Source of the DNA: Brucella rhizosphaerae
Lineage (GTDB): Bacteria; Pseudomonadota; Alphaproteobacteria; Rhizobiales; Rhizobiaceae
Length of the DNA: 64,000 nucleotides
Assembly (NCBI RefSeq): GCF_002252475.1
Contig: NZ_NNRK01000026.1
Location: forward strand, 434,001 to 498,000
Direction: 5' to 3'
Under the pieces are notes generated by a model, which ran no database searches, had not been told where the DNA came from, and worked only from the letters and a program-made list of their open reading frames with translations. A program made the position numbers and the translations under genes. Below are positions 22,787 to 44,059 of the stretch, piece by piece. Numbering within the stretch: the first letter of the stretch is position 1; every line of letters begins with the position of its first letter.

Positions 22787-22798
22787 CGGTTAGGTGCA

Positions 22799-23407: not shown

Positions 23408-23413
23408 CGCATC

Positions 23414-23764: not shown

Positions 23765-23768
23765 TGTC

Positions 23769-24819: not shown

Positions 24820-24835
24820 CCCAATCACCTGAAAC

Positions 24836-24880: not shown

Positions 24881-24896
24881 CTCATGGAGAATTATC

Positions 24897-25747: not shown

Positions 25748-25890
25748 TCAATCGCGACATCGGCAAGATGACGGTTTGGGAATTCCGCTGTGCGGTTGAA
25801 GGCTTCAAAGCCGCCAATGCGACCGAAGAAAAAGCCGCTCCGGGTATGAGCGACGATCAACTTGCAGAACTTGGAATTGAGGGATTCTGA
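25651..25890 (+). CDS. Tail assembly chaperone, downstream -1 frame
   Basis: The frame opens after stops at 25642-25650 and ends with TGA 25888-25890, overlapping the tape measure ATG. From about residue PRGKWKFNRFYQWAGIINRD it reads like a coherent domain (MTVWEFRCAVEGFKAANATE) ending MSDDQLAELGIEGF. It could be reached by -1 frameshifting from the upstream gene within 25651-25747 (the G-runs at 25656-25661 and 25671-25676 are candidate slip sites), or begin at ATG 25768. Lambda G/GT is the known parallel. Confidence 0.7.
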   Translation, partial: SAGGATGGGEEDPNPLPRGKWKFNRFYQWAGIINRDIGKMTVWEFRCAVEGFKAANATEEKAAPGMSDDQLAELGIEGF

Positions 25891-28889: not shown

Positions 28890-29569
28890 TGGCACCAATT
28901 CTATGGCCGCGCTCTGTGCTTAAGCCTAAGCGCGATCCTTTTAATATTGCGCCGCGCACATTGGCCGGACCTGCGAGCGTATCAGGTGTGTCGCAGGTCT
29001 CAGCGTCGGATGCAGGCATCTGGAAGGCAACTTTTGCAGATATCATCATAAAGCGCGGAACGGCTTCAATCTTAGCGTTTCGCGCTATTTCCACCATGCT
29101 AGAGGGCAGGTTGCATCCCATTCTTGTTCCAAGGTGCTGCGCCTATCAGCCTTTCGATCCAGACTGGAAAGACTTGCTTAATAGGGTTCCTCATTCGGAT
29201 ACCAGCCCGTTTAGTGATGGTGGCTTGTATCGATCTCGCGCAATCGACATTCGCCTGACAAGCAACATCCCGCTGCGAGGAACAACCGCAAACATTGCCA
29301 TTGTTGCGGCGGGTCAATTGCAGCCTGGACAAGATTTCTCAGTCGGTGAGCGCATGTACCGTATTCGCACCGTGCAGATGACCGGACCGAATACAGCAAC
29401 CATCACTTTTCGACCTCCAGCGCGTGAAGCTGTGAGCGCAGGAACGGAAATGGAATTTGACCGCCCTGTCTGTCGCATGCGCCTTGCAACTGATGCTGAG
29501 ATGGATCTGGACTTAGACCTTGTTGCGCCGTGGTCTTACCCGACTGTGAATTTCATTGAGGATGTATGA
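28889..29569 (+). CDS. Minor tail protein, distal tail region (226 aa)
   Basis: One-base overlap with the tape measure gene (TAATG). Beta-rich sequence (APRTLAGPASVSGVSQVSA, IPLRGTTANIAIVAAGQLQP, GPNTATITFRPPAREAVSAG). Its place right after the tape measure corresponds to the distal tail protein (lambda M-like slot). No family recognised with certainty. Confidence 0.7.
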   Translation: MAPILWPRSVLKPKRDPFNIAPRTLAGPASVSGVSQVSASDAGIWKATFADIIIKRGTASILAFRAISTMLEGRLHPILVPRCCAYQPFDPDWKDLLNRVPHSDTSPFSDGGLYRSRAIDIRLTSNIPLRGTTANIAIVAAGQLQPGQDFSVGERMYRIRTVQMTGPNTATITFRPPAREAVSAGTEMEFDRPVCRMRLATDAEMDLDLDLVAPWSYPTVNFIEDV

Positions 29570-30159
29570 TGTCTTTTTTCACGTCACAGCAATTGGCTGA
29601 GTTCTCAAAAAGTGAGGTTCGGCTTGATATGCTTGTCGAGTTCCGCTTTGCGTCTGAGACAATGCGGGTATGGAACGGCAATACTAAACTGCCAGCTGGC
29701 GGCAATATCTATGAGCCGATGTATGGCTATGGTTCGATTGATGGTATCGGCATGGGGTCATCAACAGCCGCAGAAAGCGTGTCGTTTCAATTAAGTGGCT
29801 TGCCGGATGCGACACTGAACTTTCTCGCCATGGCGCTCGACGCCAACGATGAGGTTGATCAGCGGATTGTTGTGGTTTCTATCCAGTTGTTCGATACCGA
29901 ATGGCAACCACTTGGTAACCCTGCGCCGATCTGGTGGGGCTTCATGCAGCCGCCGCGCATTAGCCGTTCAGAAATGCAGGGAATTGAAGGCGCAATTCAG
30001 TCGATCTCAATGACCGCAGAGAATGCATTCTTCAATCGGTCACGGCCTGCTTATGGCCGGTACACTGACCGGGATCAACAAGCCAGATCGAACGGGGATA
30101 AGTTCTTTCAGTTCGTCGGTTCGTTGCTGTTCAAAAGCTTCAAATATCCCGATTATTAG
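29566..30159 (+). CDS. Minor tail protein (197 aa)
   Basis: ATG 29566 (or 29569) overlaps the previous stop. Sequence features include EFRFASETMRVWNGNTKLPA and VSFQLSGLPDATLNFLAMAL, with DTEWQPLGNPAPIWWGFMQP. It occupies the lambda L slot between distal tail and NlpC-type protein in tail-tip assembly. Not firmly assigned to a family. Confidence 0.7.
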   Translation: MMSFFTSQQLAEFSKSEVRLDMLVEFRFASETMRVWNGNTKLPAGGNIYEPMYGYGSIDGIGMGSSTAAESVSFQLSGLPDATLNFLAMALDANDEVDQRIVVVSIQLFDTEWQPLGNPAPIWWGFMQPPRISRSEMQGIEGAIQSISMTAENAFFNRSRPAYGRYTDRDQQARSNGDKFFQFVGSLLFKSFKYPDY

Positions 30160-30168
30160 GGCCAGTTC

Positions 30169-30561
30169 ATGCAGATTGCAGAGTTTGTAGCAGCCGAGGC
30201 GCAAAAGCCTTTCCGGTGGGGTGAGACTGACTGCGCTTCAACGGCAGATAGATGGATTAGCCTAAAGATGGGGAAATCACCCTTGGCGCAGGCTGGGTTG
30301 GTTTACCGCGATGAATACGACGCCACATCCCTTCTGATCGAGCGTGGCAGTTTCCCCGTTGTCGTGAACCGGGCGATGAGGGTGGTCGGCCTTGAAAAGA
30401 GCGAAGAACCAAAGACCGGCGATGTCGGTCTCATCATTCATAACAGAAAATTATGCCTCGCCATTCATGCTGAAACATTCTGGTTCTCGCGGGATGAGAG
30501 CGGGCTGATCGGCGCACCACTTGATGCAATCTGGAAAGCTTGGAGAATTGAATGCCCGTAG
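30169..30561 (+). CDS. DUF6950/NlpC-P60-like tail protein
   Basis: 130 residues. PFRWGETDCASTADRWISLK places a cysteine as in NlpC/P60 peptidases, and GDVGLIIHNRKLCLAIHAET supplies the later His-region; this fits the DUF6950 group. It occupies the lambda K position and may cut peptidoglycan or serve in tail tip assembly. The end overlaps the next start by ten bases. Confidence 0.8.
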   Translation: MQIAEFVAAEAQKPFRWGETDCASTADRWISLKMGKSPLAQAGLVYRDEYDATSLLIERGSFPVVVNRAMRVVGLEKSEEPKTGDVGLIIHNRKLCLAIHAETFWFSRDESGLIGAPLDAIWKAWRIECP

Positions 30562-32324
30562 CTCTTTCCGGTTTGATTGCAACAATAGTTGGAACTGGCG
30601 CAGTTGGTGCCGCTTTGCAAACTGGTCTCGCGGCACTGACTATGTTCGCATCAACCACATTAGGCGGCTTGGCGCTCTCTCTCGGTCTGTCCTATCTCGC
30701 TTCATCGCTGTTCCGCCCATCGCAGCCGAAGCCTGAAGATGTTCAACAGCAGGTGCGCCAGCCGACAGCGCCGCGCATTCGACATTACGGTCGCGTGAAA
30801 ATGTCTGGCACTTGGGCATTTGCGGAAACCAAGAGCGGCAATTTTTATAAGGTGTTAGCGTTAGGGCAGGGGCCGTTTGATGCAATTGAAGAGTTTTGGA
30901 TTGATGACGTAAAGCTTGATCTTCGTCCAGACGGTACGCCTGTTCCACCAAACAAATACCGTGAAGGGACGACAGGTAAGGCACTATTACGGGTTGAAGG
31001 GCGCTTAGGCTTTAGCACTGAAACTGCGTATCCTGAATTGGTTTCTCAGTTCCCGGAATGGACGGCTCAGCATCGTGGCGACAACGTAGCTTCAATGTTA
31101 GCCGTTCAATATGCTGTGGGACAAGAATACTACCTGAACCTATTCCCAAACGGCATAAATACAAATTACCGCGTTGTTGCACGAACATCGCGGGTGAAAA
31201 ACCCTGAAACTGGGGTAACCGAATGGAATGATCGAGCTGCTGCGGTCATCAGGGACTACATGATGCACCGTGATGGTATGCGTTTGCCCGAAAGCCTTTT
31301 AAGCACACCATTAGCTCAAGCTGGATGGGTAACGGCCTACTATCGTTCGAGTGAGCCAATAGCTATAGCCGCAGGCGGGACAGAGCCTCGTTATCGTCTG
31401 TGGGGTTCATATCAGCTCAATGAGCGTCCAGCGGACGTTTTGGGGCGGATGCTTGCATGCTGTGACGGTAGATTGGTTCCAACACCAGACGGCGGCTTAA
31501 CGCTTGATATTGGCGCATGGTCTGAGCCTTCAGTAGTCTTGAATGCTGATGCTATTACTGGCTTTTCCGAGGTTGGCCGTGGTCGTGATGTGATGACATC
31601 AGCCAACACGATCCGCGCAACATTCCTTGATCCAAGTCAAGATTACCAGTCCACTGATGCCGATCCATGGGCTGATGAGGGTGACGTTTCCGAGCGCGGC
31701 GAGGAAGCCAAAGACGTTCAGTTCAATATGGCCCCGTCGCACAGTCAAGCACGGCGTTTGATGAAACTAGAATGGTTTCGAGCAAATCCGAATTGGGTTG
31801 GCACATTCAACACAAACCTGATGGGCCTTGCTGCATTTGGGGAACGATTTGTCCGCATACAGTACCCATTTTTTGGCATCAACAGCGTGTTTGAAGTCCT
31901 TGATTTCAAGTTTATTCTTGGTGAGGGCGGTATTCTCCAAGGCGCGACCATACAAGTACAGTCTATGCCACAGACAGCTTATCAGTGGGATACCTCGCAG
32001 GAAGGAACCGCGCCTGTATCGGACAGTAGTAATGTTGGAGACGATCTCCCCGTCCCAGCCGCACCAGCTGTCATCATTCAATCTGGACCCGTTGCAGAAC
32101 TTAGCTTCCCGCCATCCAGCAATCTTATCTTAAGCTATATGGTTCGGTGGAAAAAGACGTCAGACGCTGATTGGACCGTAGTGGGGCCGCTCGACAATAA
32201 CGCCGAGAGTTACACCACGCCAACTCTTTCAGCAGCAACCGAATATCAATTCCAGTTAGCGATGCGTACCGAAAAGGGACGTGTAGGCGCTTATTCGCCA
32301 AGCACAGTCCGAACAACGCCCTGA
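30552..32324 (+). CDS. Tail tip/host specificity protein (lambda J-like)
   Basis: 590 residues. The N-terminus has two Gly/Ala-rich hydrophobic helices (GTGAVGAALQTGLAALTMFA, LGGLALSLGLSYLASSLF) and RQPTAPRIRHYGRVKMSGTW. The centre (DVLGRMLACCDGRLVPTPDG) is a baseplate-hub-like region and the C-terminus (VRWKKTSDADWTVVGPL, YTTPTLSAATEYQFQLAMRT) is a fibronectin type III domain. This is the usual build of the central tail tip protein that touches the host. Confidence 0.85.
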   Translation: MPVALSGLIATIVGTGAVGAALQTGLAALTMFASTTLGGLALSLGLSYLASSLFRPSQPKPEDVQQQVRQPTAPRIRHYGRVKMSGTWAFAETKSGNFYKVLALGQGPFDAIEEFWIDDVKLDLRPDGTPVPPNKYREGTTGKALLRVEGRLGFSTETAYPELVSQFPEWTAQHRGDNVASMLAVQYAVGQEYYLNLFPNGINTNYRVVARTSRVKNPETGVTEWNDRAAAVIRDYMMHRDGMRLPESLLSTPLAQAGWVTAYYRSSEPIAIAAGGTEPRYRLWGSYQLNERPADVLGRMLACCDGRLVPTPDGGLTLDIGAWSEPSVVLNADAITGFSEVGRGRDVMTSANTIRATFLDPSQDYQSTDADPWADEGDVSERGEEAKDVQFNMAPSHSQARRLMKLEWFRANPNWVGTFNTNLMGLAAFGERFVRIQYPFFGINSVFEVLDFKFILGEGGILQGATIQVQSMPQTAYQWDTSQEGTAPVSDSSNVGDDLPVPAAPAVIIQSGPVAELSFPPSSNLILSYMVRWKKTSDADWTVVGPLDNNAESYTTPTLSAATEYQFQLAMRTEKGRVGAYSPSTVRTTP

Positions 32325-32387
32325 TCAATCAAACAATCTAGATAATTTCCCCTGCTCTGGCGGGGTTATTTGCCATGGAGCAAACGC

Positions 32388-34361
32388 ATGACCGTTCGTA
32401 CAATTGATGACATTTTCCGCGATTTCACTATTGATGGCGTCCCGTCTTCCGGCCCTTTCAACCCATACAAACCAGACATCCGCGACACGCTCAAGGCTTT
32501 GCTAGAGGGTGTAAGCACCTTTCCTGATAACCGTGTTATTCGCTTGAACAATGCTAATTCGGGTACGCCTAATAACATTGTTGTAACGGCATCCGTTGCT
32601 ATCCCAGCAGCAGCATATCAAGTTCTTTACATCCTGAATGTGACGCAAGAGAACACTGGAGCCGTTACGGTTTCAGGCGCGATCAATAAAACGCTCGTTA
32701 CCAACACGAGCAGGCCAATCGAACCCGGTTATTTGCAGCCCGGAATGGCGCTGCTTTGCATAGACACAGGCACAGATTTACGTCTTCTGTCGTATGGTGA
32801 TGCAGAGGCAATACTTGCTGCCGCCGAGGACGCTGCGGAAAGAGCAGAAGCAGCTGCTGCGGGTCTTAATCTTCCCGTCATTCAGCCTGGAGATGCTGGA
32901 AAGTCTCTTATCGTCAATGATGATGAAAATGGGTATGAGCTGGGTGCCGCAACTGCCGGTTATTATGACAGCAAACTAGCCGTTGAAGGCTCAAATATTC
33001 CAGACGGAACGAACTTCATTCATACTGCTGGGTACTACTCAGCTGGTGATGGCGGTCCCGCCTTGTATGTAAGGGCGGCTTCTGAGCCAGCGCACGAGGG
33101 TAAAGTTCAATCAGTAGATGGCGCTTGGTGGGCATTGGCTACTGAATATGTCACGCCGAACATGTTTGGCGCACGATGTAATGGGGTGGATGATGATGCA
33201 CCTGCCATAAATGCAGCGTGGGCATATGCTACAGCCCTAGGACTTGTAGGCGCGCCTCTCCAGCTTGTGTCCAAAAAGGTGTACTACGCTGGGACTTCCA
33301 TTCAATTAGGCCCGATAAGCGAAAAGCAGCGTATTCTTGAAGGTAACGGTGCAGAAATTAAGTGCCTATCCAATTTCGTCGGCTATCTGTTCGACAGTGA
33401 TAATTCAGATGGAGTATGGGCCTGGCGTGTTGAATTGCGTAATTTTACTGCCGATGGCATCTACGCAAGCAGTTCGCCTAACTTCATGCGCCTTCGTCAC
33501 GTAAACGGCCTGTGTCTTGATCACGTCTACATTCAGTCCTTTAATCTCGGAATAGCTGTTAATTCAAGCTATGCGGTAGCACTTCGCAATGTAACATTCA
33601 GATACATGAAGCAGCATGTTCTATGGATTTCGTCGTCAAGTATGCAATTGAAACTTATCGATGTGAGGGCTTATTCGACACAGGATGGGGCTGATACTCC
33701 AGCCAATCCCGCCATAATTCTTACGGCTAGCAATGCGAATATCATAATGATCGGCTGCGACTTTGAGGGTGGTAAAGGACCTTTCCTCTACAGCAATCAA
33801 ACGATAAGGCAGCTTTCAATAACAGACAGCTATATAGAAGGATTTGTTGGCAATCCTCTGGATTTTCAAGCGGATGTTACAGCGTTTACATTTGAGGGTA
33901 ATTGGCTCGGGTATAATACCGGCACTCAAAATTGGACCAATATCAAGTCAGGTCGCATTTCGGGTAATGTTTTTGCGCAGCAGCAGTTTTCAATCGGTGG
34001 CGGGAATAGAGATGTATTCGAAGGCAATAACGCTTTCATAGATGGTTCAAATATATTTTCGTTCCGAGTATGGGGGGCCAGCTTGGCAAGCGGGGCAACA
34101 CCTCTTGACCTGCCCGGTTATAAGCGGACGCCTGAAGGTGTAACCTATTTATCAGGAAGAATATCAAGAACTGCAAGCGGCAACTTGTTTACCTTGCCTG
34201 ATGGGTACCGTCCAAAGGTAGACACATCGATCCCCACATATGTCGAGGGTGGATTTGCGCAAGCCGTAATAGATGTGTCGTCAACAACAGGTGTGGTGTC
34301 CGTACGATATTCATCTGGCGGCGGAAATCTCCGCTTAGACGGCATGTCTTTCTTAAGCTGA
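32388..34361 (+). CDS. Tailspike/tail fibre with pectate-lyase-like beta-helix
   Basis: 657 residues from ATG 32388 (ATGGAG upstream). The N-terminal about 200 residues bind the virion; then NMFGARCNGVDDDAPAINAA is the Pectate_lyase_3/tailspike entry motif, and a long series of short turns (GLCLDHVYIQSFNLGIAVNS, ITDSYIEGFVGNPLDF) forms a right-handed beta-helix. The C-terminus is a small beta domain. It probably binds and perhaps degrades a host surface polysaccharide. The DNA becomes more AT-rich towards its 3' end. Confidence 0.85.
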   Translation: MTVRTIDDIFRDFTIDGVPSSGPFNPYKPDIRDTLKALLEGVSTFPDNRVIRLNNANSGTPNNIVVTASVAIPAAAYQVLYILNVTQENTGAVTVSGAINKTLVTNTSRPIEPGYLQPGMALLCIDTGTDLRLLSYGDAEAILAAAEDAAERAEAAAAGLNLPVIQPGDAGKSLIVNDDENGYELGAATAGYYDSKLAVEGSNIPDGTNFIHTAGYYSAGDGGPALYVRAASEPAHEGKVQSVDGAWWALATEYVTPNMFGARCNGVDDDAPAINAAWAYATALGLVGAPLQLVSKKVYYAGTSIQLGPISEKQRILEGNGAEIKCLSNFVGYLFDSDNSDGVWAWRVELRNFTADGIYASSSPNFMRLRHVNGLCLDHVYIQSFNLGIAVNSSYAVALRNVTFRYMKQHVLWISSSSMQLKLIDVRAYSTQDGADTPANPAIILTASNANIIMIGCDFEGGKGPFLYSNQTIRQLSITDSYIEGFVGNPLDFQADVTAFTFEGNWLGYNTGTQNWTNIKSGRISGNVFAQQQFSIGGGNRDVFEGNNAFIDGSNIFSFRVWGASLASGATPLDLPGYKRTPEGVTYLSGRISRTASGNLFTLPDGYRPKVDTSIPTYVEGGFAQAVIDVSSTTGVVSVRYSSGGGNLRLDGMSFLS

Positions 34362-34455
34362 TGGTCTAGACCTTCGTTCCACCCGGTGTGGGCGGGGGGC
34401 ACCGTCACATACAACTCACCAGCAATAATATTGTTACAACACGCGCAGTTAGCAA

Positions 34456-34665
34456 CTAAATCAGACTAATGACTCTTGCATGCAACATGGTTATTTCATC
34501 TTTAATTAACGATAGTTCAGTCTGTACCTCTATTGGAAACTGAGCCGTTCTTAGGTATTCTGGGTGGCTTGAGCCCGTTTGTCTCAGATGTTGAATTTTT
34601 TTGGCTAATTCATCATATGCAATTTGTATCGCTTCTATCGTGAAGGGACGGGTGGTATATTCCAT
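34456..34665 (-). CDS. Small minus-strand protein in the moron island (69 aa)
   Basis: ATG 34665 with AAGGA six bases upstream. A helical sequence (TIEAIQIAYDELAKKIQHLR, then QTELSLIKDEITMLHARVI) with coiled-coil character. It lies opposite to the late genes and directly beside the glycosyltransferase fusion, so it may have its own promoter and be expressed in the lysogen. Function unknown. Confidence 0.55.
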   Translation of the reverse strand: MEYTTRPFTIEAIQIAYDELAKKIQHLRQTGSSHPEYLRTAQFPIEVQTELSLIKDEITMLHARVISLI

Positions 34666-34792
34666 AATTGATCCTTGAGGGCGTACGCAATAAACGTATC
34701 CTAACGCCACAGATCGAATCAAACAAGTGTCTGTTATCCAACGCAAAGCTCCGTGCCGTCAGACTGGGGTGTGTTTTTATTAAAGGTCAGAT

Positions 34793-37690
34793 ATGCCCGC
34801 AGAAAAGTTTATAATGCCGTTGCCTGGACAGTTTGATAAGCGTCATTATGACAATTATAATCAATCGCATCCCTATGTGTGTACTCCTCAGTGGAATTTT
34901 GGGGTAAACGCGGAAGCTCGGATCATCAATGACATTTTCAATGATGGACTGACATCCGACATTATATGGCAGCCGGATACATACCATTCAGCTAAAGCAT
35001 ATGCGGATGCCATAGACGCAAAGCGCGTCATCGATATCGGGTGTGGCAGCGCCCTTAAACTCAAAAGTCTGTTTTCCGACACCGATTCTGAAGTGTTTGC
35101 GGTGGATTTCAAAGGATCACTGGCTGCGGCCATTCAAAATTACGCGGAAGCATCTCATGTCGAGTGCGATCTTACGTCATGGAGTGAAGTTCTTAATGTT
35201 GCGAAGAAATTTCGTGATGATGTTCCAACAGTCATAATTTGTGCGGACGTTATTGAGCATATACCAGACCCTAGACCGCTTCTGGCCTTTATAAGACTAT
35301 TACTGTCCGGGAACCTTAAGAGCAGGTGCTATTTGTCGACGCCCGACAGATCCCGCTTGGGGTATCAATCGTTGTCAGCTAAGCCGGCCAATCCGGCACA
35401 TGTCAGAGAATGGACTGTCGGAGAACTTCGCAATCTCTTGATGGCGTCCGGTTTTCACGTTGAAAATATCGGAAATATTAGCGCGAATGAACATGACGGG
35501 GTGGCCAGAACTATACTTGCGGACATTTCATTTGACGCGAAATTCTATGCTGGGACACTAGCGCGCTATGGGATTAATTCCGTCGATGTAACGTCTGTGA
35601 TGATCACAACGGAGTATCCTGGTCTGGTAGCTAGCGGAGGGATAGGCACCTTTGTGGCGGATTGGCATCGTTCAACCAAGGGTTCTGCTGTTCTAGCGTC
35701 TTTTGACTTCGAGAAGGAAAAAACTCAGAACGGCGACGTCGTTTTGAGCCCGTCTGATGTCATCGACATATCAGAGATTGGAGAAATAGATACTGCTGAT
35801 GTGTTGCTGCAGGCCGCCACCCAATTTCTGTTTCTGTGCCCAGATCTGAGAGAGATACACTTTCAAGAATACTTGGGTATAGGGATGCGTATCGCGCAAG
35901 CCAAACGCGCGGGAATACTTCCTGATACACTTACAATCGTCGCGCATTGTCACGGCAATCAACATTATCTCGAAAATGCCAATCAAACATGGATGGGGGC
36001 TGATTCTCAGATATATGCGGTAAGGGAAAAAATTAGCATTGAACTTGCTGATTTTGTCGTATTCCCTTCGGAGTTTTTGAGGACATTTTACGTTCAGTCT
36101 GGCATCCAGATTGACGATAGCAAAATTATAATCTGCCCCTATCGATATACGAATATCAATGTTGATAGTTCTCCGTTCGACAATGTGAAGCGCATTGTAT
36201 TCGTCGGAAAGTTTACCCCGATGAAGGGGTTCGATTTATTTTGTGCATCTTTGGATGATAGTTTCTGCAAGGAACTAAAGGCAAAGGGCATTGAAGAAAT
36301 AACTCTAATTGGACGCGGCCCCGATACGGGATATGAGAACGAGGGGGACCTCAAGCGCCATTTCGTGCTGAGGGTTCATACTGACTTTGATCATGCGCAA
36401 TTGGTTTCCTACATTCAGGAGCACCGATCCGACAGTTTGTTTGTTCAACCTTATCGCGGTGATAATTTCCCACTCGCTGTTTATGATGTCGTTGGTAATG
36501 GCGGTGTGCTTCTGGCCGGGAACGCAGGAGGCATCCCGGAGATGTTCCAAGATAAAGACTGGCGCGAGTGTCTGGCAGACCTCTCACCGGATTCGCTTCG
36601 CTACAAACTTCGAGAAATTTTGGATTGGGACAACAAAAAGAAAGCGCGAATCCGCGATGCACTCATAGAAGATTTGAGGCGCGGGAACCTCATCTCCGAA
36701 AATAAACGATATACACAGATTGCCGGTAAACCTGTTGACCTCCTTAGTTCAACGGTGATGATCCCATTCTATAACACCGAGATTTCTGAATTCATCGAAT
36801 TGCTGAAGGCTCTCAATCAACAGTCACTTCGCCCGAGCGAGGTGATCATCGTCAATGATGCGTCTAATTATAAGAGCCAAACCGATATGGCAGAAGCCGT
36901 CGAGAGGCATCTCGATATTCCGTTCAGGATTATTGATCACGCGTATAATTGCGGCTTGGCAGGGGCGAGAAATACCGCATTGTCCGCTTGCACAACCGAT
37001 TTGATATTGAATGCTGATTCCGACGATATTCCCCTCAACGATTGGGTGAAGACAATCGTTACAGCAATGAGCAGTAACCCTCATGCTGCAGCAGCTGTAC
37101 CCTATCTGGCTGCCTTTGACGCTGGGACGGATTTCAACAAATCGCTGTTTAAAGGACAATATATCTATCGGCCAATGGGCGACGGTTTCGTGACATCGCA
37201 AACCCAAAATGATCTTGGCCACGCAAATTCTGGTTATAGGGTCAGTCATGCACGAGGGATGGGCGGCTGGAACGCTGGTTCGAAGGCAAAGTATGAGGAT
37301 TGGGCGTTCTTTCTCAATATTTTGGCAAACGGTCTACGAATAGCAATTATTCCGACCGTCACCTGCCTATATCGCGTCCGCAAAAATTCCATGGCGCGAA
37401 CATATTCAGAATGGCCTGGACAGGTACGTCTTTATCAGACTACCAACGGATTATCTCGTTTCGAAACACTCCAACTTCAGAGATATTGTCGATCTGAATC
37501 CAGTTTCGGTGGCGTCCGGTCAAGCGTAGGTATCGAACGCGTAATGGAATTGCAGAAAAAAATCGAAGCCTTCGAGCGCCGAAAAGTAATTCGTATTGTG
37601 AATGCGATGTCTGCGCGAGTACAGAGATTACCCATTCTACATAAGCTTCTACGCAGATTAAGACGTCTGATAGGCTCGCTGCGGTTTTGA
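34793..37690 (+). CDS. Three-domain protein: SAM methyltransferase + GT-B + GT-A glycosyltransferases
   Basis: 965 residues. Residues about 60-235: class I methyltransferase (VIDIGCGSALKLKSLF, FAVD, CADVIEHIPDPRPLL). About 265-640: GT-B/GT4-like (MITTEYPGLVASGGIGTFVA as in glycogen-synthase-type N-domains; IVFVGKFTPMKGFDLF; PLAVYDVVGNGGVLLAGNAG, GGIPEMF). About 650-870: GT-A/GT2-like (VMIPFYNTEISEFIELLKAL, VIIVNDASN, LILNADSDDIP with the DxD motif). A basic amphipathic tail ends the protein. It probably builds or modifies a surface glycan; within a prophage it suggests lysogenic conversion. Codon and base composition differ from the structural genes. Confidence 0.85.
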   Translation: MPAEKFIMPLPGQFDKRHYDNYNQSHPYVCTPQWNFGVNAEARIINDIFNDGLTSDIIWQPDTYHSAKAYADAIDAKRVIDIGCGSALKLKSLFSDTDSEVFAVDFKGSLAAAIQNYAEASHVECDLTSWSEVLNVAKKFRDDVPTVIICADVIEHIPDPRPLLAFIRLLLSGNLKSRCYLSTPDRSRLGYQSLSAKPANPAHVREWTVGELRNLLMASGFHVENIGNISANEHDGVARTILADISFDAKFYAGTLARYGINSVDVTSVMITTEYPGLVASGGIGTFVADWHRSTKGSAVLASFDFEKEKTQNGDVVLSPSDVIDISEIGEIDTADVLLQAATQFLFLCPDLREIHFQEYLGIGMRIAQAKRAGILPDTLTIVAHCHGNQHYLENANQTWMGADSQIYAVREKISIELADFVVFPSEFLRTFYVQSGIQIDDSKIIICPYRYTNINVDSSPFDNVKRIVFVGKFTPMKGFDLFCASLDDSFCKELKAKGIEEITLIGRGPDTGYENEGDLKRHFVLRVHTDFDHAQLVSYIQEHRSDSLFVQPYRGDNFPLAVYDVVGNGGVLLAGNAGGIPEMFQDKDWRECLADLSPDSLRYKLREILDWDNKKKARIRDALIEDLRRGNLISENKRYTQIAGKPVDLLSSTVMIPFYNTEISEFIELLKALNQQSLRPSEVIIVNDASNYKSQTDMAEAVERHLDIPFRIIDHAYNCGLAGARNTALSACTTDLILNADSDDIPLNDWVKTIVTAMSSNPHAAAAVPYLAAFDAGTDFNKSLFKGQYIYRPMGDGFVTSQTQNDLGHANSGYRVSHARGMGGWNAGSKAKYEDWAFFLNILANGLRIAIIPTVTCLYRVRKNSMARTYSEWPGQVRLYQTTNGLSRFETLQLQRYCRSESSFGGVRSSVGIERVMELQKKIEAFERRKVIRIVNAMSARVQRLPILHKLLRRLRRLIGSLRF

Positions 37691-37700
37691 TGTTGGCTCT

Positions 37701-37730
37701 AGCTGCGCCGTTAATCTTGACGGCGCAGCT
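37701..37730. terminator. Hairpin after the glycosyltransferase fusion
   Basis: An 11-bp perfect stem AGCTGCGCCGT/ACGGCGCAGCT with an eight-base loop, 10 bases after the stop codon; no T-run. A strong candidate transcript end. Confidence 0.55.
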
Positions 37731-37880
37731 TCAAGTGTCAACGACAGACACACGTCGCTCTTAGTGACTCACTGTGCTGTTAACCCCGTAGTTGATACAT
37801 TTTAAAGCATTGATGATAGCTTCTCGGACTCGCGAGTACGCAAATCGCTAACACTGGTATTCAGTTGTCCATCAATTCTC

Positions 37881-37910
37881 ACTGCCGCCTCGCCATAAAG
37901 CAGCGGCAGT
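37881..37910 (-). terminator. Hairpin after the GT-C-like membrane protein gene
   Basis: ACTGCCGC (37881-37888) pairs with GCGGCAGT (37903-37910), three bases beyond the minus-strand stop codon at 37914. With the hairpin at 37701 it separates the convergent genes of the island. Confidence 0.5.
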
Positions 37911-37913
37911 CAT

Positions 37914-39308
37914 CTAATAGGTCCATCCAATGTTTGGAGAAAGAACCAGAACAAGATTTCTGTCTATGATTGTGGTTACAGGAATTTCTTGGCGCGCATG
38001 TAAATCAGTTTCAATTTTTTTGCAGAGATCTTGATCGCATGCGCGAGTATATAATCCGAATTGTTTGTACAAGTAGTTCCTAAGGTGCCTATTACTGTGT
38101 AGGAACTTTGTGATGTGGTTCTCTGTGTAGTCACCAAAAACGATAATATTATCGTATGAACCATTATTCGCAGCCGCTGCTTGCACCAAAGTTTCGCCAA
38201 GCGAATTAGCATAAGGAAAAGTACGGTATATATCCTCCAGGCGAGCTGAACGAGAATTAACGGCTAGTAACAAAACAGAGAACGCCAAAGCATACGATAG
38301 AAAAATGAACCGTTTTGAACGGATGATGAAAAGCACAGGTGTGATTAGTGAGACCCATAACCAAAGCGAGGTTCTAGAAGGTAAGTCCAATCCTTGCAGG
38401 ATAGAGGCGGACGCCTCCATAGCTATTACCAACGCTGATAATAACAATACGTATAGGCATTTCCGTACATTTATTTTAGAAAACAAGCATATTGCATATG
38501 CTATGATGGAAATTAATATTACTGGCCAGTATTTTAGTGAGTCATTCCAGAATTTTACATATCGAGTGATATTTTGGTGCAGATTGCCATCTGGGTAAAG
38601 AGGGGTGGGATGACGCCAGCCAGCGACGTTGATACCAAAATTATCATGAAAGTACCAGTTCAGAGTGAATATAATGAATATTCCGAGCGTATAAGAAGAT
38701 ACATATACTATAACTGTATATAAAAATTCTTTTTTATTATTTATTAGATTTGCACCAAATGCGATTAAAATCATTGGTGCATAGGCTGGATATGTAAGGA
38801 GGGAAGCTATAACAGCCCCGCCGAGAACAATGTAACGGGCGCTGTTATGATGTAAAAAATAAAGTACAGCGGCGCAGGCTGCCGTTATCAATATGCTGCT
38901 GCTTTGCGTTACAGGCCAGAGCGAAAGTTCCCCGGCAGGAGGCGAGAAAAAAAACATCAAAGCGGCTATTAAGGAAAGACGTCCCATATATAGTCGAGAT
39001 ATGGATGCACACATCCAGATCGTAAGTGCAACAAACAAATAGTAAGCTGAATTTATGTTCAGATGAACGGTTAGCAACGACCACGGGTAGTTCAGCCATC
39101 TCCCCTCAGTAGATGCCTTACTCCAAGGGCTTTCGAAGCCTTGGTCGAAATTCGACGGAATTAGCCAATCGAAGTCATCGTGAGAGATAAAAGGTTCCGA
39201 GAACTGGCCAAAAACGGCGAAGAACCCGCATACAATTAGGGCAAAGATCAGTAAGCGCGCGGCTGTTTCGGATTGAATGGTTTTAATCTCGGTGATCTGC
39301 GTATGCAT
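37914..39308 (-). CDS. Polytopic membrane protein, GT-C/GtrII-like glucosyltransferase (candidate)
   Basis: 464 residues with about ten hydrophobic helices (LLIFALIVCGFFAVFGQF, YYLFVALTIWMC, FLYTVIVYVSSYTLGIFIIF, YWPVILISIIAYAICLF, FIFLSYALAFSVLLLAV) and a soluble C-terminal domain of about 90 residues. The first loop carries the acidic pair ISHDDFDWL, as in lipid-linked GT-C enzymes, and overall form resembles O-antigen glucosyltransferases of serotype-converting phages (GtrII/GtrC). The DNA is clearly AT-rich. A flippase (GtrA) or GtrB homologue is not seen beside it. Confidence 0.72.
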   Translation of the reverse strand: MHTQITEIKTIQSETAARLLIFALIVCGFFAVFGQFSEPFISHDDFDWLIPSNFDQGFESPWSKASTEGRWLNYPWSLLTVHLNINSAYYLFVALTIWMCASISRLYMGRLSLIAALMFFFSPPAGELSLWPVTQSSSILITAACAAVLYFLHHNSARYIVLGGAVIASLLTYPAYAPMILIAFGANLINNKKEFLYTVIVYVSSYTLGIFIIFTLNWYFHDNFGINVAGWRHPTPLYPDGNLHQNITRYVKFWNDSLKYWPVILISIIAYAICLFSKINVRKCLYVLLLSALVIAMEASASILQGLDLPSRTSLWLWVSLITPVLFIIRSKRFIFLSYALAFSVLLLAVNSRSARLEDIYRTFPYANSLGETLVQAAAANNGSYDNIIVFGDYTENHITKFLHSNRHLRNYLYKQFGLYTRACDQDLCKKIETDLHARQEIPVTTIIDRNLVLVLSPNIGWTY

Positions 39309-39342
39309 CAGAGGAGTTTGCCTGTATAATTATCAAATAAGT

Positions 39343-39453
39343 TCAGCGTCTGAAAATGAAAATCAGCCCAGCGACGACGACGACAGATATCACTAATGCT
39401 GATCCTATCGAAAAGATCACCCACGGATGGAATGCGTCAGAAAAATCGAGCAT
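39343..39453 (-). CDS. Tiny membrane protein 2 upstream of the GT-C-like gene (36 aa)
   Basis: ATG 39453 (a TTG four codons upstream is also possible, with GGAAG before it). Encodes MLDFSDAFHPWVIF and one helix (ALVISVVVVAGLIFIFRR). It is co-directional with and 34 bases before the large membrane protein. No known family. Confidence 0.5.
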   Translation of the reverse strand: MLDFSDAFHPWVIFSIGSALVISVVVVAGLIFIFRR

Positions 39454-39475
39454 CGTATCCAGCAAAAAGTGCTTC

Positions 39476-39583
39476 CTACTTACACACGTTCAGGAAGAAC
39501 TTGCGCGATTTTAAAAATCCAATCAGCCCGAACGAAATAACAGCGATGCCAAATATTGATATAGCAACATTGAACAAAAACAT
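39476..39583 (-). CDS. Tiny membrane protein 1 upstream of the GT-C-like gene (35 aa)
   Basis: ATG 39583 with GGGTAGGG directly upstream. Encodes one hydrophobic helix (FNVAISIFGIAVISFGLIGF) and a short basic tail (LKSRKFFLNVCK). It is the first gene of a three-gene minus-strand unit with 39343-39453 and 37914-39308. Confidence 0.5.
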   Translation of the reverse strand: MFLFNVAISIFGIAVISFGLIGFLKSRKFFLNVCK

Positions 39584-39680
39584 ATCCCTACCCCATTGTT
39601 GACGCGAGCTAATTAACCCGAACCGCTAAGGTATTTCAAGTCGCCGCCCACTGAGGCCGATTTTAATGCCGAAAGGCTAA

Positions 39681-39716
39681 AAGAAAACCCCGGAAGACGG
39701 TAGGTCAGGCCGGGGT
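39681..39716 (-). terminator. Terminator-type hairpin before the lysis genes
   Basis: On the minus strand ACCCCGG, a 16-base loop, CCGGGGT, then TTTCTTTT. On the plus strand it is preceded rather than followed by the A/T run, so it would stop leftward transcription coming from the lysis region before it reaches the membrane-protein unit. Confidence 0.55.
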
Positions 39717-39718
39717 AA

Positions 39719-39754
39719 TGCGCACCGGATGACGAGCGGGGGGGGCGGTGCGCA
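39719..39754. promoter_or_regulatory. Inverted repeat in the leader of the endolysin gene
   Basis: TGCGCACCG (39719-39727) and CGGTGCGCA (39746-39754) form a perfect 9-bp stem around 18 bases containing a run of G. It lies 72 bases before the endolysin start and directly after another hairpin. A leader RNA element or a protein-binding site is possible. Confidence 0.45.
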
Positions 39755-39826
39755 ATAAAAAGTTAGCGGATCATCAGAATATGTGAAGCCGCTTTGTCAT
39801 AACAATATCTTAAAAGAGGAAACACA

Positions 39827-40654
39827 ATGGACAGAACCGTACCAGCTGGCGCGGCGCTTCTGCTTGATTTCGTGCGTCTCATCGAGACCGGCAAAACCGA
39901 CCGCTCCTCTTACGATGTGATCTACGGTCACAACGAAGGAAAAATATCGAAGAAAGTCACTTCGATGTCGATTGATGAGCTTATCGGAATCCAGCCGACC
40001 TTTACAAAACGATTCAAGTCATCGGCTGCTGGTGGGTATCAGTTCATGCGCAATACTCTGCGCGACCTGAAGGCGGAATTGCGATTGCGCGGCGGGCAGA
40101 TCATGGATCCCGACCTGCAGGATCGTCTCGGTTATCATCTGGCTATTCGTCGCGGCTACAATGATTTCATCTCAGGCAATATCAGTCGTACTGAGTTCGG
40201 GCGGAGGCTCGCGCAGGAATGGGCTTCATTTCCTGTCCTTGCTCCGACGAAGGGCGCGCATCGTGCATTGGAGCGTGGTGAAACCTTCTATTCTGGCGAC
40301 AAGCTCAATAAGGCACTTGTTACGCCTCAGCGCATGGAAGCAATTCTTGATCAGGTAAAGTCTGCTGCCAATTCGACGTCAGCAAGTGATGCCGTTGTCG
40401 TTGTAGAAAAAGTGCCAATCGTTGCGGATCCGGGTGAGCTTGGCTCGCCGCCCACAAAATCTAAAACGGTTATCGGCAATGCATTGACCGCCATAGGCAT
40501 GGCAGTAACGGGTATTGGCGCTTTCCTTGGCGGTCTGGATTGGCGTGTACAGCTGTTCATCTGCGCTTTGGTTGGTGGCTTTGCTGTTTATGCAATCAAG
40601 CGCCGCTTCGATCTCTTTAAGGCTGTCAAAGATCTTTCCAATGAGTTTGCCTGA
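39827..40654 (+). CDS. Endolysin: lambda R-like transglycosylase with C-terminal membrane anchor
   Basis: 275 residues (AAGAGG upstream). The N-terminal about 160 residues follow lambda R/GH104: catalytic Glu in RLIETGKTDRSSYDVIYG (like SEGTD...GYDVIVGG), SSAAGGYQFMRNTL (like STGAGRYQLL). A Ser/Val linker leads to two membrane helices at the C-terminus (NALTAIGMAVTGIGAFLGG; VQLFICALVGGFAVYAI), absent from lambda R. It cuts peptidoglycan glycan strands; the membrane part may replace or regulate a holin. Confidence 0.88.
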   Translation: MDRTVPAGAALLLDFVRLIETGKTDRSSYDVIYGHNEGKISKKVTSMSIDELIGIQPTFTKRFKSSAAGGYQFMRNTLRDLKAELRLRGGQIMDPDLQDRLGYHLAIRRGYNDFISGNISRTEFGRRLAQEWASFPVLAPTKGAHRALERGETFYSGDKLNKALVTPQRMEAILDQVKSAANSTSASDAVVVVEKVPIVADPGELGSPPTKSKTVIGNALTAIGMAVTGIGAFLGGLDWRVQLFICALVGGFAVYAIKRRFDLFKAVKDLSNEFA

Positions 40655-40941
40655 TGGTGACAATCTGGAAGGTCATTCCTGCCTGGCTAAAATACCTTAT
40701 CGCCGGAATCGCCGCAGCCTGCATCGTTGCGGGTGGCGGCTACCTGTTCGGTAAGCGTGAAGGTCGGCACGAAATCAAAATCGAGCAACTGCAATCTGAC
40801 ATCAATGCTGAACGTGAAAGGACGAAGGACGATGCGAAGCTCCGTTCTCTGTCGAACTATGATTTTTGTGTCTTGTCTCTTCGGCGTCGCGGCATGCAAC
40901 CCACAGACTGTGAGCCACTGCGCGGGGTGGCGGCAGAATAA
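40654..40941 (+). CDS. i-spanin (Rz-like)
   Basis: 95 residues; ATG overlaps the endolysin stop (TGATG). One N-terminal membrane helix (WLKYLIAGIAAACIVAGGGY) and a periplasmic coiled coil (KIEQLQSDINAERERTKDDA). The Rz1-like gene starts inside it in another frame. With Rz1 it fuses inner and outer membranes in the last step of lysis. Confidence 0.8.
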   Translation: MVTIWKVIPAWLKYLIAGIAAACIVAGGGYLFGKREGRHEIKIEQLQSDINAERERTKDDAKLRSLSNYDFCVLSLRRRGMQPTDCEPLRGVAAE

Positions 40942-41047
40942 TCTCAGTGCGGCCGGATTGGTTGCTCTTACCACGGTGGATCGGGCAGGGGCCGAACGCG
41001 TCGAGGGCAATGATGAAAACGGAAAACAGCGGGGGTGCTGGAAGTGA
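40832..41047 (+). CDS. o-spanin (Rz1-like lipoprotein), overlapping Rz
   Basis: 71 residues from ATG 40832 (AAGGA upstream), in the +1 frame relative to the Rz gene and overlapping its 3' half. The signal region MIFVSCLFGVAAC has a lipobox (V-A-A-C). The mature part is short. Its stop overlaps the next start (GTGA). The nested arrangement is the hallmark of Rz/Rz1. Confidence 0.75.
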   Translation: MRSSVLCRTMIFVSCLFGVAACNPQTVSHCAGWRQNNLSAAGLVALTTVDRAGAERVEGNDENGKQRGCWK

Positions 41048-41355
41048 GCTCAACCATGCCTGAGACAGATGCTGATCTTCGTGCCCGTGTAGTAGGGCTT
41101 GAACAAGCAACCCAAACAAATAATCAGCGACTGGCCACGCTTGAAACTTGGCAGCGCCAGCGTGAGATTGACAGCGCTCGAAATGATGAAAAATGGGTCG
41201 CAATGGAAGCTCGTATTGATACGCGCTTTTCCGGGCTGGAAGGATCCGTGCAAAGCATTATGTCTTCGCTGTCTCGTATTAATTGGATGATTATTGGCGG
41301 GTTGGTTGCGGCTTTTGTCGCATTTGTGGTTGGCGGCGGCTTGAAGTCACTCTGA
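41044..41355 (+). CDS. XhlA-like holin-associated protein (candidate)
   Basis: 103 residues from GTG 41044 (GGGGG upstream; ATG 41056 is an alternative). A coiled coil (ATQTNNQRLATLETWQRQRE, MEARIDTRFSGLEGSVQS) followed by one C-terminal membrane helix (WMIIGGLVAAFVAFVVGGGL) is the hemolysin XhlA layout. Probably a holin or holin partner. A strong terminator follows. Confidence 0.75.
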   Translation: MSSTMPETDADLRARVVGLEQATQTNNQRLATLETWQRQREIDSARNDEKWVAMEARIDTRFSGLEGSVQSIMSSLSRINWMIIGGLVAAFVAFVVGGGLKSL

Positions 41356-41400
41356 CCTACAAATTTCCAATCTGCGATTAATCGCAAACTCTCAAATCGA

Positions 41401-41422
41401 CCCCGCTTCGGCGGGGTTTTTT
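41401..41422 (+). terminator. Rho-independent terminator of the late operon
   Basis: CCCCGC-TTCG-GCGGGG followed by six T. It ends the lysis genes 45 bases after the last stop codon. Confidence 0.92.
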
Positions 41423-41552
41423 GTTATCCGCAGTTGGGCAAATATATTAAAAAGCATAATCAAATCATGTGGGCCATTTCTGTCCCACTTTTCTGCAAGC
41501 GTTTGAATTGGCTCGCTTTCCGTAGAACCTCCGGGACTCCGAACCTTTCGCA

Positions 41553-41834
41553 TTATTCGTCGGGATCTGTTCCGGTGTAGCCAAGATACATCCCAGCCGA
41601 AACAGCCTTGATTGCCTTCGCTGTTTCTTCTGCTGACCAGCCAGATGCAACCGCGTCATCGATGAGATCGCGTATGCCTGGTACGCCGGTGTCAGCTATA
41701 GCTGCGGCAGCATCTGCCTCAGATGTACCTGATAGTGCTGCTTGCTCGATCAAGTCCGCGATGCCCTGCGAGACTGCTTCCTGACAATCCAGATCCCGAT
41801 CTGGATAGTTGCCGGACTGTTTCGGTTTCAACAT
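41553..41834 (-). CDS. Hypothetical protein of the SOS-type cassette (93 aa)
   Basis: An acidic, Ala-rich protein (EADAAAAIADTGVPGIRDLI, ASGWSAEETAKAIKAVSAGM) with ATG 41834 and AAGGGAG upstream. It appears as an internal duplication: two segments of form 'G..DLI(E/D).A..SG.S...AA.AI' (about 24-47 and 53-80). Last gene of the minus-strand unit led by the Y-family polymerase. Not recognised. Confidence 0.65.
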   Translation of the reverse strand: MLKPKQSGNYPDRDLDCQEAVSQGIADLIEQAALSGTSEADAAAAIADTGVPGIRDLIDDAVASGWSAEETAKAIKAVSAGMYLGYTGTDPDE

Positions 41835-41860
41835 GATGCTCTCCCTTTTAAGGAGAGCAG

Positions 41861-42055
41861 TTAGCGCGCTCTTAACCTTCGTCCAGCCATGGCGTCTACG
41901 CCCTCTTGTCGATGCTCAAGGCAAAACCAAAGTTGCCCGTATTTCGTTTTAAAGCCATACGTTCCCCATGCCTTGCAGTCCTTAGCATCGCACCAATGCT
42001 CCCACTTGCCCACGGGCTTGGAAAAGCGGCCATTATCTGTTCCGTATCCGCTCAT
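41861..42055 (-). CDS. Small zinc-ribbon-like protein (64 aa)
   Basis: WEHWCDAKDCKAWGTYG and LWFCLEHRQEG give C-x4-C...C-x2-H, a likely zinc site. Its start overlaps the stop of the next upstream gene by four bases. Same operon as the Y-family polymerase. Confidence 0.7.
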   Translation of the reverse strand: MSGYGTDNGRFSKPVGKWEHWCDAKDCKAWGTYGFKTKYGQLWFCLEHRQEGVDAMAGRRLRAR

Positions 42056-42306
42056 GCTAAACCACCGACAAAGCCGCTCATTTCTTTAAGACGCACCATG
42101 GATAGGCGCATATTGCCTTTACAGCCGCGTCCTTTGCAGCGTGCCATGCTCTCAATCTGATCGAGATAGAGTTGCGAGCGATCAACTGTCTCGCAGAGCA
42201 ATAATTTATCGGTGTAGGCCAGCCGGTTACATTTTCGGCAAATCAGTTCCAGCTTTTGATCTTCTGCCAGATCACCGACTTTGATGTGGGTTTTCCAGTT
42301 TCCCAT
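42052..42306 (-). CDS. Small zinc-ribbon-like protein (84 aa)
   Basis: ATG 42306 overlaps the polymerase stop (ATGA). ELICRKCNRLAY and ARCKGRGCKGN provide C-x2-C and C-x4-C pairs, probably binding one zinc ion. The upstream frame from 42456 is within the polymerase gene and is not used. Tight coupling suggests that it acts with the polymerase or with DNA. Confidence 0.7.
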   Translation of the reverse strand: MGNWKTHIKVGDLAEDQKLELICRKCNRLAYTDKLLLCETVDRSQLYLDQIESMARCKGRGCKGNMRLSMVRLKEMSGFVGGLA

Positions 42307-43580
42307 CACCAGAAGTCCTCGGCTGATGGAATGCGGGTATAGCTGATCTTTCCGCCAACGTTTCCACCTGCTGGTGGTTTCCATTCCCCCATGCTGACGA
42401 TTGTGCCTGAATATTTGCTGTTGAGCTTGTCGACAGCGCCGTTTGCGCGTTCCCACTTCTGACGAAGCTTGTCATCATTGTTGAGCAAATCGATCTGGCG
42501 CTCGTCAGATGGCGATAAATCATACAGTGTGACGCCAACACGGAAGATTGTTGTTCCGCGCGGAAACTCTAGGCGGACACGATTCCAAAGTGCGTTAAGG
42601 CCCGCCAGAATTGCTTGATCGTCATTAACGACGGATAGCCCTTGTTTGCCAAGCCATGAACCGTCATGGATCGATAGCCAGAGCCACAAACCTCCGGCAT
42701 AAAAGTTTTCGCGGCGCAGGCGGCGTGCGGCTTTTGTCAACAAGAGACGGGAAATTTCGTATGCGCCATCAATCTTGCGGGATTCTGGCGGCAGCACGCG
42801 CCCGTGGCCAAACATGCCTCGTTGTTGCTCTGGCGCTTGGATGTCATATCCATGCAGAGCATACCAAAGCCGCTCACCGTTCACGTTGTTCCAGATCTTG
42901 CGCATATGCTTCGGTTGAAGGGCATATAGCTGCTCTGTGGTGTAGACGCGGTTTTTATAAAGCCGCTGCGCCAAGCTCGATCCGATGCCGGGAATATCTT
43001 CCATCTGGATTTTCAGGAGCGGCGCTGGCATCAATGCGGGATGCCAGATCGCAAGGCCGTTGCCATAGCTGCCATGACGCTTGCTTTCGTCTTTCCCAGC
43101 CTTGCACGCGATCTTGGCCAGCTGGCGGTTCGCGGCAAATCCTATTGAGCTGGTGATATATGGCCCGATGTTGTCAGCAATAGCCGCTTTAATGCGCTTG
43201 GACAGCAATTCAGGATCTCGCTTGCCGCTATCATCCAGCACGCACGTCAGTTCATCAATGCTCTTAGCCGTATCAATCGCGATGACGGTCTCTATCTCGC
43301 AGAGCAAGGCGTTGTGTGCGCGTCGGTAAAGATCTGGGTTCTGGGGCACGAGAATGAGATCCGGACAAACCCGCAGCGCGTCCTTAATTGGCATCACATT
43401 CTTCACGCCCATCGCTTTCGCCTCTTTTGAGCAGGCAATCACGGCAGTTCTATTGGTGCCTTCAAATGGAACAACACCGACTGGCCGACCTCGCAGACGC
43501 TTGTCGCACTGTTGCTCGACTGACGCAAAAAAGCCGTCAAAGTCGAGGTACAGCCGTTCTATAGTCTCAGGCAGGCGCAT
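42306..43580 (-). CDS. Y-family (DinB/UmuC-like) translesion DNA polymerase
   Basis: 424 residues with CTGGAG upstream. Catalytic motifs: YLDFDGFFASVEQQ (first Asp pair region), KSIDELT (SxDE), and the helix-hairpin-helix MEDIPGIGSSLAQRLYK. The little-finger region follows, then a C-terminal part unlike DinB, closer to ImuB/UmuC lengths. It would copy damaged DNA with low fidelity. An SOS box lies about 83 bases upstream. It is carried inside the prophage and so adds to the host set. Confidence 0.9.
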   Translation of the reverse strand: MRLPETIERLYLDFDGFFASVEQQCDKRLRGRPVGVVPFEGTNRTAVIACSKEAKAMGVKNVMPIKDALRVCPDLILVPQNPDLYRRAHNALLCEIETVIAIDTAKSIDELTCVLDDSGKRDPELLSKRIKAAIADNIGPYITSSIGFAANRQLAKIACKAGKDESKRHGSYGNGLAIWHPALMPAPLLKIQMEDIPGIGSSLAQRLYKNRVYTTEQLYALQPKHMRKIWNNVNGERLWYALHGYDIQAPEQQRGMFGHGRVLPPESRKIDGAYEISRLLLTKAARRLRRENFYAGGLWLWLSIHDGSWLGKQGLSVVNDDQAILAGLNALWNRVRLEFPRGTTIFRVGVTLYDLSPSDERQIDLLNNDDKLRQKWERANGAVDKLNSKYSGTIVSMGEWKPPAGGNVGGKISYTRIPSAEDFW

Positions 43581-43662
43581 TTCAAACTCCAGAAAACAGG
43601 GCGCACGAAACCTGTCCTGAGTACATAGATACTAAGGAACATATTCCGCGCTGTAGGGGAAT

Positions 43663-43677
43663 GTTCCTAAAATGTTC
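43663..43677 (-). promoter_or_regulatory. SOS (LexA) box of alphaproteobacterial type
   Basis: GTTC-N7-GTTC (GTTCCTAAAATGTTC) fits the direct-repeat LexA box of Rhizobiales. It is placed upstream of the Y-family polymerase unit, so this operon is expected to be DNA-damage inducible even in the lysogen. Confidence 0.85.
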
Positions 43678-43754
43678 TCATTCGAAGAAAGAGTCAATCC
43701 AGCTTTTTCTGACGGTGAAAATGCGGTGGAAATCCAGTTGATAAGCTGTGGAGC

Positions 43755-43880
43755 ATGCCCCGCCGTGACGAGATTTATGCTGGGGTGAAAAATTTTAACT
43801 ATGCGCCATTTGGAACCCTATCGGGGCTGCTTAAAGTTGGAACCTTCATCGCAAATTCAGTAAATCTTACAGCCTTCTAA
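43755..43880 (+). CDS. Possible small ORF (41 aa)
   Basis: ATG 43755, TAA 43878-43880. Encodes MPRRDEIYAGVKNFNYAPFG and more without a hydrophobic segment. GGAG lies only one base before the ATG, so translation is uncertain. It would be divergent from the polymerase unit and share its SOS box. Confidence 0.25.
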   Translation: MPRRDEIYAGVKNFNYAPFGTLSGLLKVGTFIANSVNLTAF

Positions 43881-44032
43881 GCCGGTGCTTGACGATTCTT
43901 TGCAATTCCTGACCGTATATCGCGTGGGTTGGGCTTTAAAACGCATTAAAAGCGCCACTTAACGGGTGACTATTTGTGATACACAGATAACGATTTATAC
44001 GGCTAACTAATTGAAAAGACTATGTCAGAATA

Positions 44033-44059
44033 TGGTGCGGTTGCACGCCGACCGCACCA
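44033..44059. repeat. attR core within a hairpin
   Basis: CGCCGACCGCACCA (44046-44059) equals the tRNA-Leu 3' end at 4253-4266. Its last nine bases also pair with TGGTGCGGT at 44033-44041, making a perfect inverted repeat with a nine-base loop. Marks the right end of the prophage. Confidence 0.85.

Follow-up and report, generated by a model that had tools for sequence, protein, structure and literature searches.

The window analysed here is a 64,000-nucleotide stretch of Brucella rhizosphaerae (contig NZ_NNRK01000026.1, positions 434,001 to 498,000) that carries a prophage of about 39.8 kb. Between the tailspike and endolysin genes of this prophage lies an AT-rich block, with a GC content of 45.2% versus 52.7% in the upstream part of the prophage contig (Table 1). 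Its plus-strand gene encodes a protein of 965 amino acids (aa) with methyltransferase (MT) and glycosyltransferase (GT) domains, and converges with a minus-strand unit (39583 to 37914) that encodes, in order, microproteins of 35 and 40 aa and a 464-aa membrane enzyme. A sequence-only reading had described the block as a glycan-modifying lysogenic-conversion system of unusual composition, and all of its parts were found where that reading had placed them.

Table 1 Features of the prophage and of the stretch between spike and endolysin (positions in the window)
Feature	Position	Strand	Remark
Prophage limits	4253..44059	none	14-bp direct repeat, at the tRNA-Leu 3' end (4253) and at 44046
590-aa tail protein	30552..32324	+	marker of the phage backbone; 29 further IMG/VR loci have relatives
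Tailspike, 663 aa	32370..34361	+	upstream flank of the island; confirmed by profile search
Putative 69-aa open reading frame (ORF), counted from ATG	34456..34665	-	start of the interval
Methyltransferase - GT-B - GT2 protein, 965 aa	34793..37690	+	WsaE-like domain order, intact S-adenosylmethionine (SAM) motif I
464-aa membrane enzyme, predicted GT-C fold, probable GtrC type	37914..39308	-	predicted fold and neighbourhood of relatives
40-aa single-transmembrane microprotein, TTG start	39343..39465	-	conserved with Gtr-type slots
35-aa single-transmembrane microprotein, ATG start	39476..39583	-	conserved with Gtr-type slots
Probable right border of the exchange site, short common stretch	39641..39676	none	DNA similarity between slots
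Endolysin, right-hand flank	39827..40654	+	PHROG 90, E 3e-36

Pfam places a methyltransferase domain at residues 74-224 of the 965-aa protein, a GT1-type domain at 462-620 and a GT2 domain at 654-815, in agreement with the earlier call of one methyltransferase and two glycosyltransferase domains. The same order of MT, GT and GT in one chain is found in WsaE, the rhamnan polymerase and methyl-cap enzyme of the Geobacillus stearothermophilus S-layer system, whose N-terminal methyltransferase methylates rhamnose and whose two GT domains form rhamnan linkages, in a cluster that includes wzm, wzt and rmlABCD (PMC2943079). Since other genomes of the genus and family also have relatives, located in polysaccharide loci of the chromosome, the composition of this gene is not unusual. 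The loci of some chromosomal relatives hold Wzm/Wzt-like and rml genes; the window copy differs from WsaE in its Gram-negative setting and in that one paralogue lies on a prophage, the comparison being one of domain order, not of sequence.

Full-length relatives of the 965-aa protein were found by genome search. Among 150 genomes (the own genome and relatives), copies are present in G018 (locus L022, 70%), G007 (68%) and G024 (L024, 66%), all of the same genus, and on the host's own chromosome (L025, 64%); G001 has pieces only (L026). Six of 388 family genomes drawn gave matches below E 1e-60, four of them new: G714 (L141, 70%), G484 (L142, 53%), G678 (L143, 46%) and G759 (L144, 42%). Four of the eight other full-length copies (42–70%) are chromosomal and lie beside wzm/wzt or rml, and one occupies the equivalent slot of a second prophage. 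That copy, in G007, belongs to a different prophage, where a tail-fibre-like gene and the endolysin flank it and epimerase-like and GT29-like genes also occur, and G007 gave no further strong match. Plasmids gave no match at E 1e-30, and phages gave partial matches only, in six records. A single-protein scan of genome contigs gave no such protein where the genome search did, and thus missed or omitted relatives.

The copies in L025, L024 and L141 have as neighbours Wzm- and Wzt-like genes together with genes for a GT-like protein of 562 aa and an epimerase-like protein of 302 aa, and the pieces in L026 have the same neighbours, likewise as pieces. The genes rmlA, C, B and D lie near L025 (read from L122), L022 and L141. 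Within the 20 kb fetched for each, Wzm/Wzt were not seen at L022, nor the rml set at L024. The combination of wzm, wzt and rml in one locus is therefore found in chromosomal L025 and L141, partly in L022 and L024, and not around the prophage copy. L144 has an epimerase-like gene and a weak Wzt match; among the neighbours of L143 there is no Wzm/Wzt, rml, 562-aa GT-like or epimerase-like gene. In L142 an epimerase-like gene lies near the MT-GT-GT gene, and the locus adjoins a stretch of tail-fibre-like, GtrC-like, GtrB, methyltransferase-sized, GtrA-sized (by size only) and endolysin genes. This prophage-like end directly beside the MT-GT-GT and epimerase-like genes (L142, 328-12104) is a possible place of capture.

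The earlier reading had counted a core chromosomal locus of the same genes in non-lysogens as a point against itself. For the 965-aa gene chromosomal copies do exist elsewhere, which agrees with that point in part, one of the genomes (G018) having another prophage-type endolysin; the 464-aa gene was not found as a chromosomal locus in 396 other genomes of the order. The chromosomal MT-GT-GT relatives point to the source of the gene, and not against a glycan role. The target of that role might be a capsular or other surface polymer, or the phage particle, instead of the O-polysaccharide. Such a target would fit the below-cutoff matches of the GT2 domain to PgaC, TuaG and other exopolysaccharide enzymes, and no search named the acceptor, two points that tell against an O-polysaccharide target. 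However, the relatives lie with Wzm/Wzt-like and rml genes, a layout like that described for atypical Brucella, where a rhamnose-based O-antigen locus includes export genes of its own (PMC5040101), and we regard a different target as very unlikely.

We then compared the state of the methyltransferase domain. Eight of nine full-length copies (window, L022, L023, L024 and L141-L144) keep ID(I/V/L)GCG or VDIGCG at SAM motif I, and the resident copy L025, with VYFSFG, is the only one to have lost it. In L025 the MT core has also diverged more than the other domains, with 52-58% to the other four of the genus, versus 62-77% for GT-B and 75-83% for GT2. For the pair L024-L025, the ratio of nonsynonymous to synonymous differences (pN/pS) is 0.43 in the MT domain versus 0.18 and 0.15, and the GT domains in general show low values of 0.13-0.27. 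Methylation has thus probably disappeared from the resident chromosomal enzyme but not from that of the prophage.

A chain terminator with a molecular ruler, of the WbdD kind, was also considered. In WbdD and Klebsiella ORF6-O7 a coiled-coil ruler lies between the terminator and polymerase domains (PMC11231755). In the 965-aa protein the conserved MT part ends at about residue 250 and the conserved GT-B part starts at about 268, a spacing that seems too narrow for a ruler. In addition, the Wzt-like proteins have a length of only about 245-247 aa. On these grounds the candidate was set aside, and we favour O-methylation of the chain by the MT domain, with no commitment to capping. In Ochrobactrum, an FkbM methyltransferase has been proposed to control O-polysaccharide length (PMC10888714).

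The 464-aa protein has a predicted GT-C fold, which agrees with the earlier call of a GT-C-like membrane enzyme. The GT-C superfamily motif consists of acidic residues in the first outer loop. Two aspartates, D44 and D45, are invariant in 29 sequences and follow the first long helix (2-36), in a loop predicted to face outward. Sequence families were of little help: Pfam (to E 1), PHROGs and NCBIfam gave no Gtr family and no useful match, a phage collection gave none at E 0.01, and a library of viral protein models none below E 0.001. A Pfam match to Holin_SPP1 (E 0.1) was rejected in view of the length of 464 aa, the GT-C fold and the strand opposite to the lysis genes.

Pmt, ALG12, STT3 and PglB proteins give the best fold matches, and this argues, against a GtrC-type role, for an oligosaccharyl- or protein-glycosyltransferase of GT-C fold. 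These matches, however, merely reflect which GT-C structures are solved, and for 25 of 30 database relatives GtrA and a GtrB-like GT2 are encoded nearby, in a GT2-GtrA-MT neighbourhood as in Gtr operons. A protein- or oligosaccharyl-glycosyltransferase is thus quite unlikely. The ORFs of the slot encode neither GtrA nor GtrB, as the sequence-only reading had noted, but the host chromosome has one GtrA with an adjacent GtrB-like gene. The 464-aa protein is probably an orphan GtrC-type enzyme that could use this resident pair.

In known conversion systems GtrA and GtrB are conserved and gtrC is serotype-specific (PMC2629481). The prophage group studied here shows a similar pattern. In related prophages L061 and L080, GtrB is 83-85% and GtrA 51-81% identical to the host chromosomal proteins, GtrB being close in both and GtrA in L080, while the third protein varies (59% identical in L080, no BLASTP match in L061). 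The window slot shares a GtrC-type enzyme with the GtrABC systems of P22, epsilon34 and Shigella phages, but lacks gtrA and gtrB and has two microproteins. In Salmonella prophage BTP1 the spike gene likewise adjoins a conversion gene without intact gtrA and gtrB, gtrB being deleted and gtrA truncated; GtrC-BTP1 is proposed to be an acetyltransferase independent of GtrA/B (PMC4413052), whereas the 464-aa protein has a predicted GT-C fold.

To place the block among related prophages, we used the 590-aa tail gene, which occurs in 30 IMG/VR loci, one of them the own prophage. Both spike and endolysin are present in 20 loci, the window's included; the remaining ten are truncated, have no spike or are more distantly related. 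The 20 slots contain 40 ORFs of at least 150 aa, of which 35 were scanned for families; the rest are a transposase-like ORF in L059, three ORFs of 161-165 aa and the L080 GtrB, placed by BLASTP. Leaving out the window's two, and adding four from the incomplete slots L056 and L065 and the L061 GtrA, gives 38 scanned ORFs of other prophages. GT, acyltransferase, GtrA, GtrII, RgpF or heparinase-type families account for 27 of these, five are methyltransferases only, one is a sulfatase, and five have another or no family. At least one glycan-active gene is present in 17 of the 20 slots (in L059 only a heparinase-type lyase), the others being L060 (empty), L072 (a 666-aa ORF without family and DUF3800) and L084 (radical SAM). 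As a control, 53 ORFs outside the slots (every fourth of 211) included none with glycan families, among 22 families listed (Fisher 1e-14, a guide only, as the ORFs are related).

Most related prophages examined have a different gene set at the same position, and the stretch between spike and endolysin is an exchange site. A stretch of 31-38 bp near the endolysin is shared at 84-87% identity with L060, L064 and L084 (E 0.001-0.004) and occurs also in L061 and L080; being common to slots with different contents, it is the probable right border. As a side observation, the main cargo of L084 is a radical SAM/SPASM protein (5616-7046), an unusual kind for this site. In BiPBO1, a temperate phage of Brucella inopinata, ORF29 is an FN3 protein, ORF30 a pectin lyase, ORF32 a membrane acyltransferase and ORF33 a lysin, and its authors left open whether the acyltransferase is a holin (PMC4729917). 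Compared by description only, an acyltransferase between pectin lyase and lysin resembles the slots of the window type, which suggests that it may be cargo rather than a holin.

An exchange site could also collect passenger DNA, that is, host polysaccharide genes that recombination has brought into a permissive position, with no benefit to the phage and no change of the coat. The GC content of the slot is below that of the upstream region in 20 of 20 cases, the MT-GT-GT relatives are mostly chromosomal, and neither the empty slot of L060 nor the contents of L072 speak of glycans; these points weigh against conversion. On the other hand, the 965- and 464-aa reading frames are intact, the low pN/pS of the GT domains speaks against idle cargo, and the concentration of varied glycan-active genes in the slots has no counterpart outside them. 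Passenger DNA is therefore an unlikely explanation.

The two microproteins described by the sequence-only reading are more than chance ORFs, because their ratios of nonsynonymous to synonymous substitution rates (dN/dS) against the L061 relatives are about 0.16 and 0.12, and three of three copies found retain TTG as start codon of the 40-aa ORF. Among the loci compared, both occur only in copies of the own prophage, L061 and L080. A search of all viral contigs, made with the 40-aa protein alone, gave the same three prophages, and this protein was not found in 34 other genomes of the genus or 393 other genomes of the family. Microproteins are present in three of three slots with a Gtr-type membrane enzyme and in none of 17 others (Fisher 0.0009), a small sample of three cases from one phage group. 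Here the L061 enzyme was counted as Gtr-type by its position beside GtrA and GtrB, and L056, with a membrane protein and a GtrB-like gene, was excluded as its slot stops at a contig end.

The endolysins of the three prophages show no significant mutual similarity, which argues against mere co-transfer of the pair with the lysis genes. In both L061 and L080 the pair is encoded opposite gtrB and overlaps the end of that gene; in the window, without gtrB, it lies directly upstream of the 464-aa gene. The polytopic proteins beside the microproteins have no BLASTP similarity to one another. The microproteins are conserved companions of the Gtr-type module. Since they accompany three dissimilar polytopic proteins and three unrelated endolysins, and persist in the window slot, where gtrA and gtrB are missing, it is tempting to speculate that they are a new accessory pair of GtrC-type enzymes, in a cassette whose phage enzyme supplies the O-methylation lost by the resident paralogue, although we hold this combined reading doubtful. 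On this reading, the pair could serve to dock the orphan GT-C enzyme, to stabilise it or to link it with the resident GtrA and GtrB.

The tailspikes on the other side of the slot have a constant and a variable part. All 300 pairs of 25 spikes share the N-terminal 160 residues, and beyond residue 300 only 8 of 276 pairs of the 24 long-enough spikes still match, one of these pairs being identical. The C-terminus (from residue 301) is mostly unrelated between prophages; that of the window spike had no phage match at E 0.001, and viral contigs gave only itself. The window spike has a weak beta-helix match (E 0.004). A structure model of its C-terminus was dropped, with two sequences only and a pLDDT of 42. 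The earlier reading had proposed that the spike may recognise the glycan which the cargo alters; eight sharing pairs are too few to test for coupling of spike and cargo, and esterase spikes with acyl cargo gave p 0.25. The spike C-termini of L064, L074 and L084 belong to esterase families (SASA, GDSL), and in L064 and L074 the sole large cargo gene is an acyltransferase or RgpF-hexapeptide transferase.

Among the loci compared, the putative 69-aa ORF matched copies of the own prophage only. A promoter and terminator scan gave 14 and 6 sites, near chance (shuffled means 10.9 and 4.8). A tandem array whose unit measures 27 bp (9 codons) lies at 7596-8135 inside a minus-strand ORF (7513-8460), and a Y-family DNA polymerase near the right end of the prophage (42306-43580) has 98% identity in a related prophage of G002.

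Together, the domain content and order, the predicted GT-C fold, the relatives in polysaccharide and Gtr loci and the exchange at the slot make it likely that the block, placed at an exchange site with the receptor-binding spike on one side and the endolysin on the other, is a cassette for lysogenic conversion of the host O-polysaccharide. The glycan-modifying role first proposed is supported by the domains, the loci of relatives and the slot contents of related prophages. Anatomy and comparison support O-polysaccharide conversion well; its chemistry and its effect on phage adsorption we infer as follows. The MT-GT-GT protein would act like WsaE, its two GT domains building the repeat of a chain that contains rhamnose and would be exported through the resident Wzm/Wzt transporter. 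The prophage methyltransferase would O-methylate this chain, an activity probably lost in the resident chromosomal paralogue. In the periplasm, the 464-aa GT-C enzyme would add a side sugar from undecaprenyl-phosphate-sugar, which the resident GtrB-like protein would make and the resident GtrA would flip. The altered coat may then keep away phages with the same spike type.

Conversion genes together with spikes are classical in P22-like phages (PMC2629481, PMC4413052), and the cassette would be a variant of this known, P22-type conversion. A literature text search gave nothing on a prophage O-antigen glycosyltransferase of Ochrobactrum and, by title, nothing on lysogenic conversion of O-antigen by Brucella prophages, most subscription papers being outside its reach; the available parts of PMC3688519, PMC13123978 and PMC5492332 hold nothing bearing on the slot. 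With this site, an alphaproteobacterial prophage group gains a recognisable place of exchange, in which receptor-binding spike and glycan-modifying cargo stand side by side. Spike type, cargo and O-polysaccharide thus become comparable across strains, and our results suggest that phages carry enzymes of chain assembly, not just side-chain enzymes.
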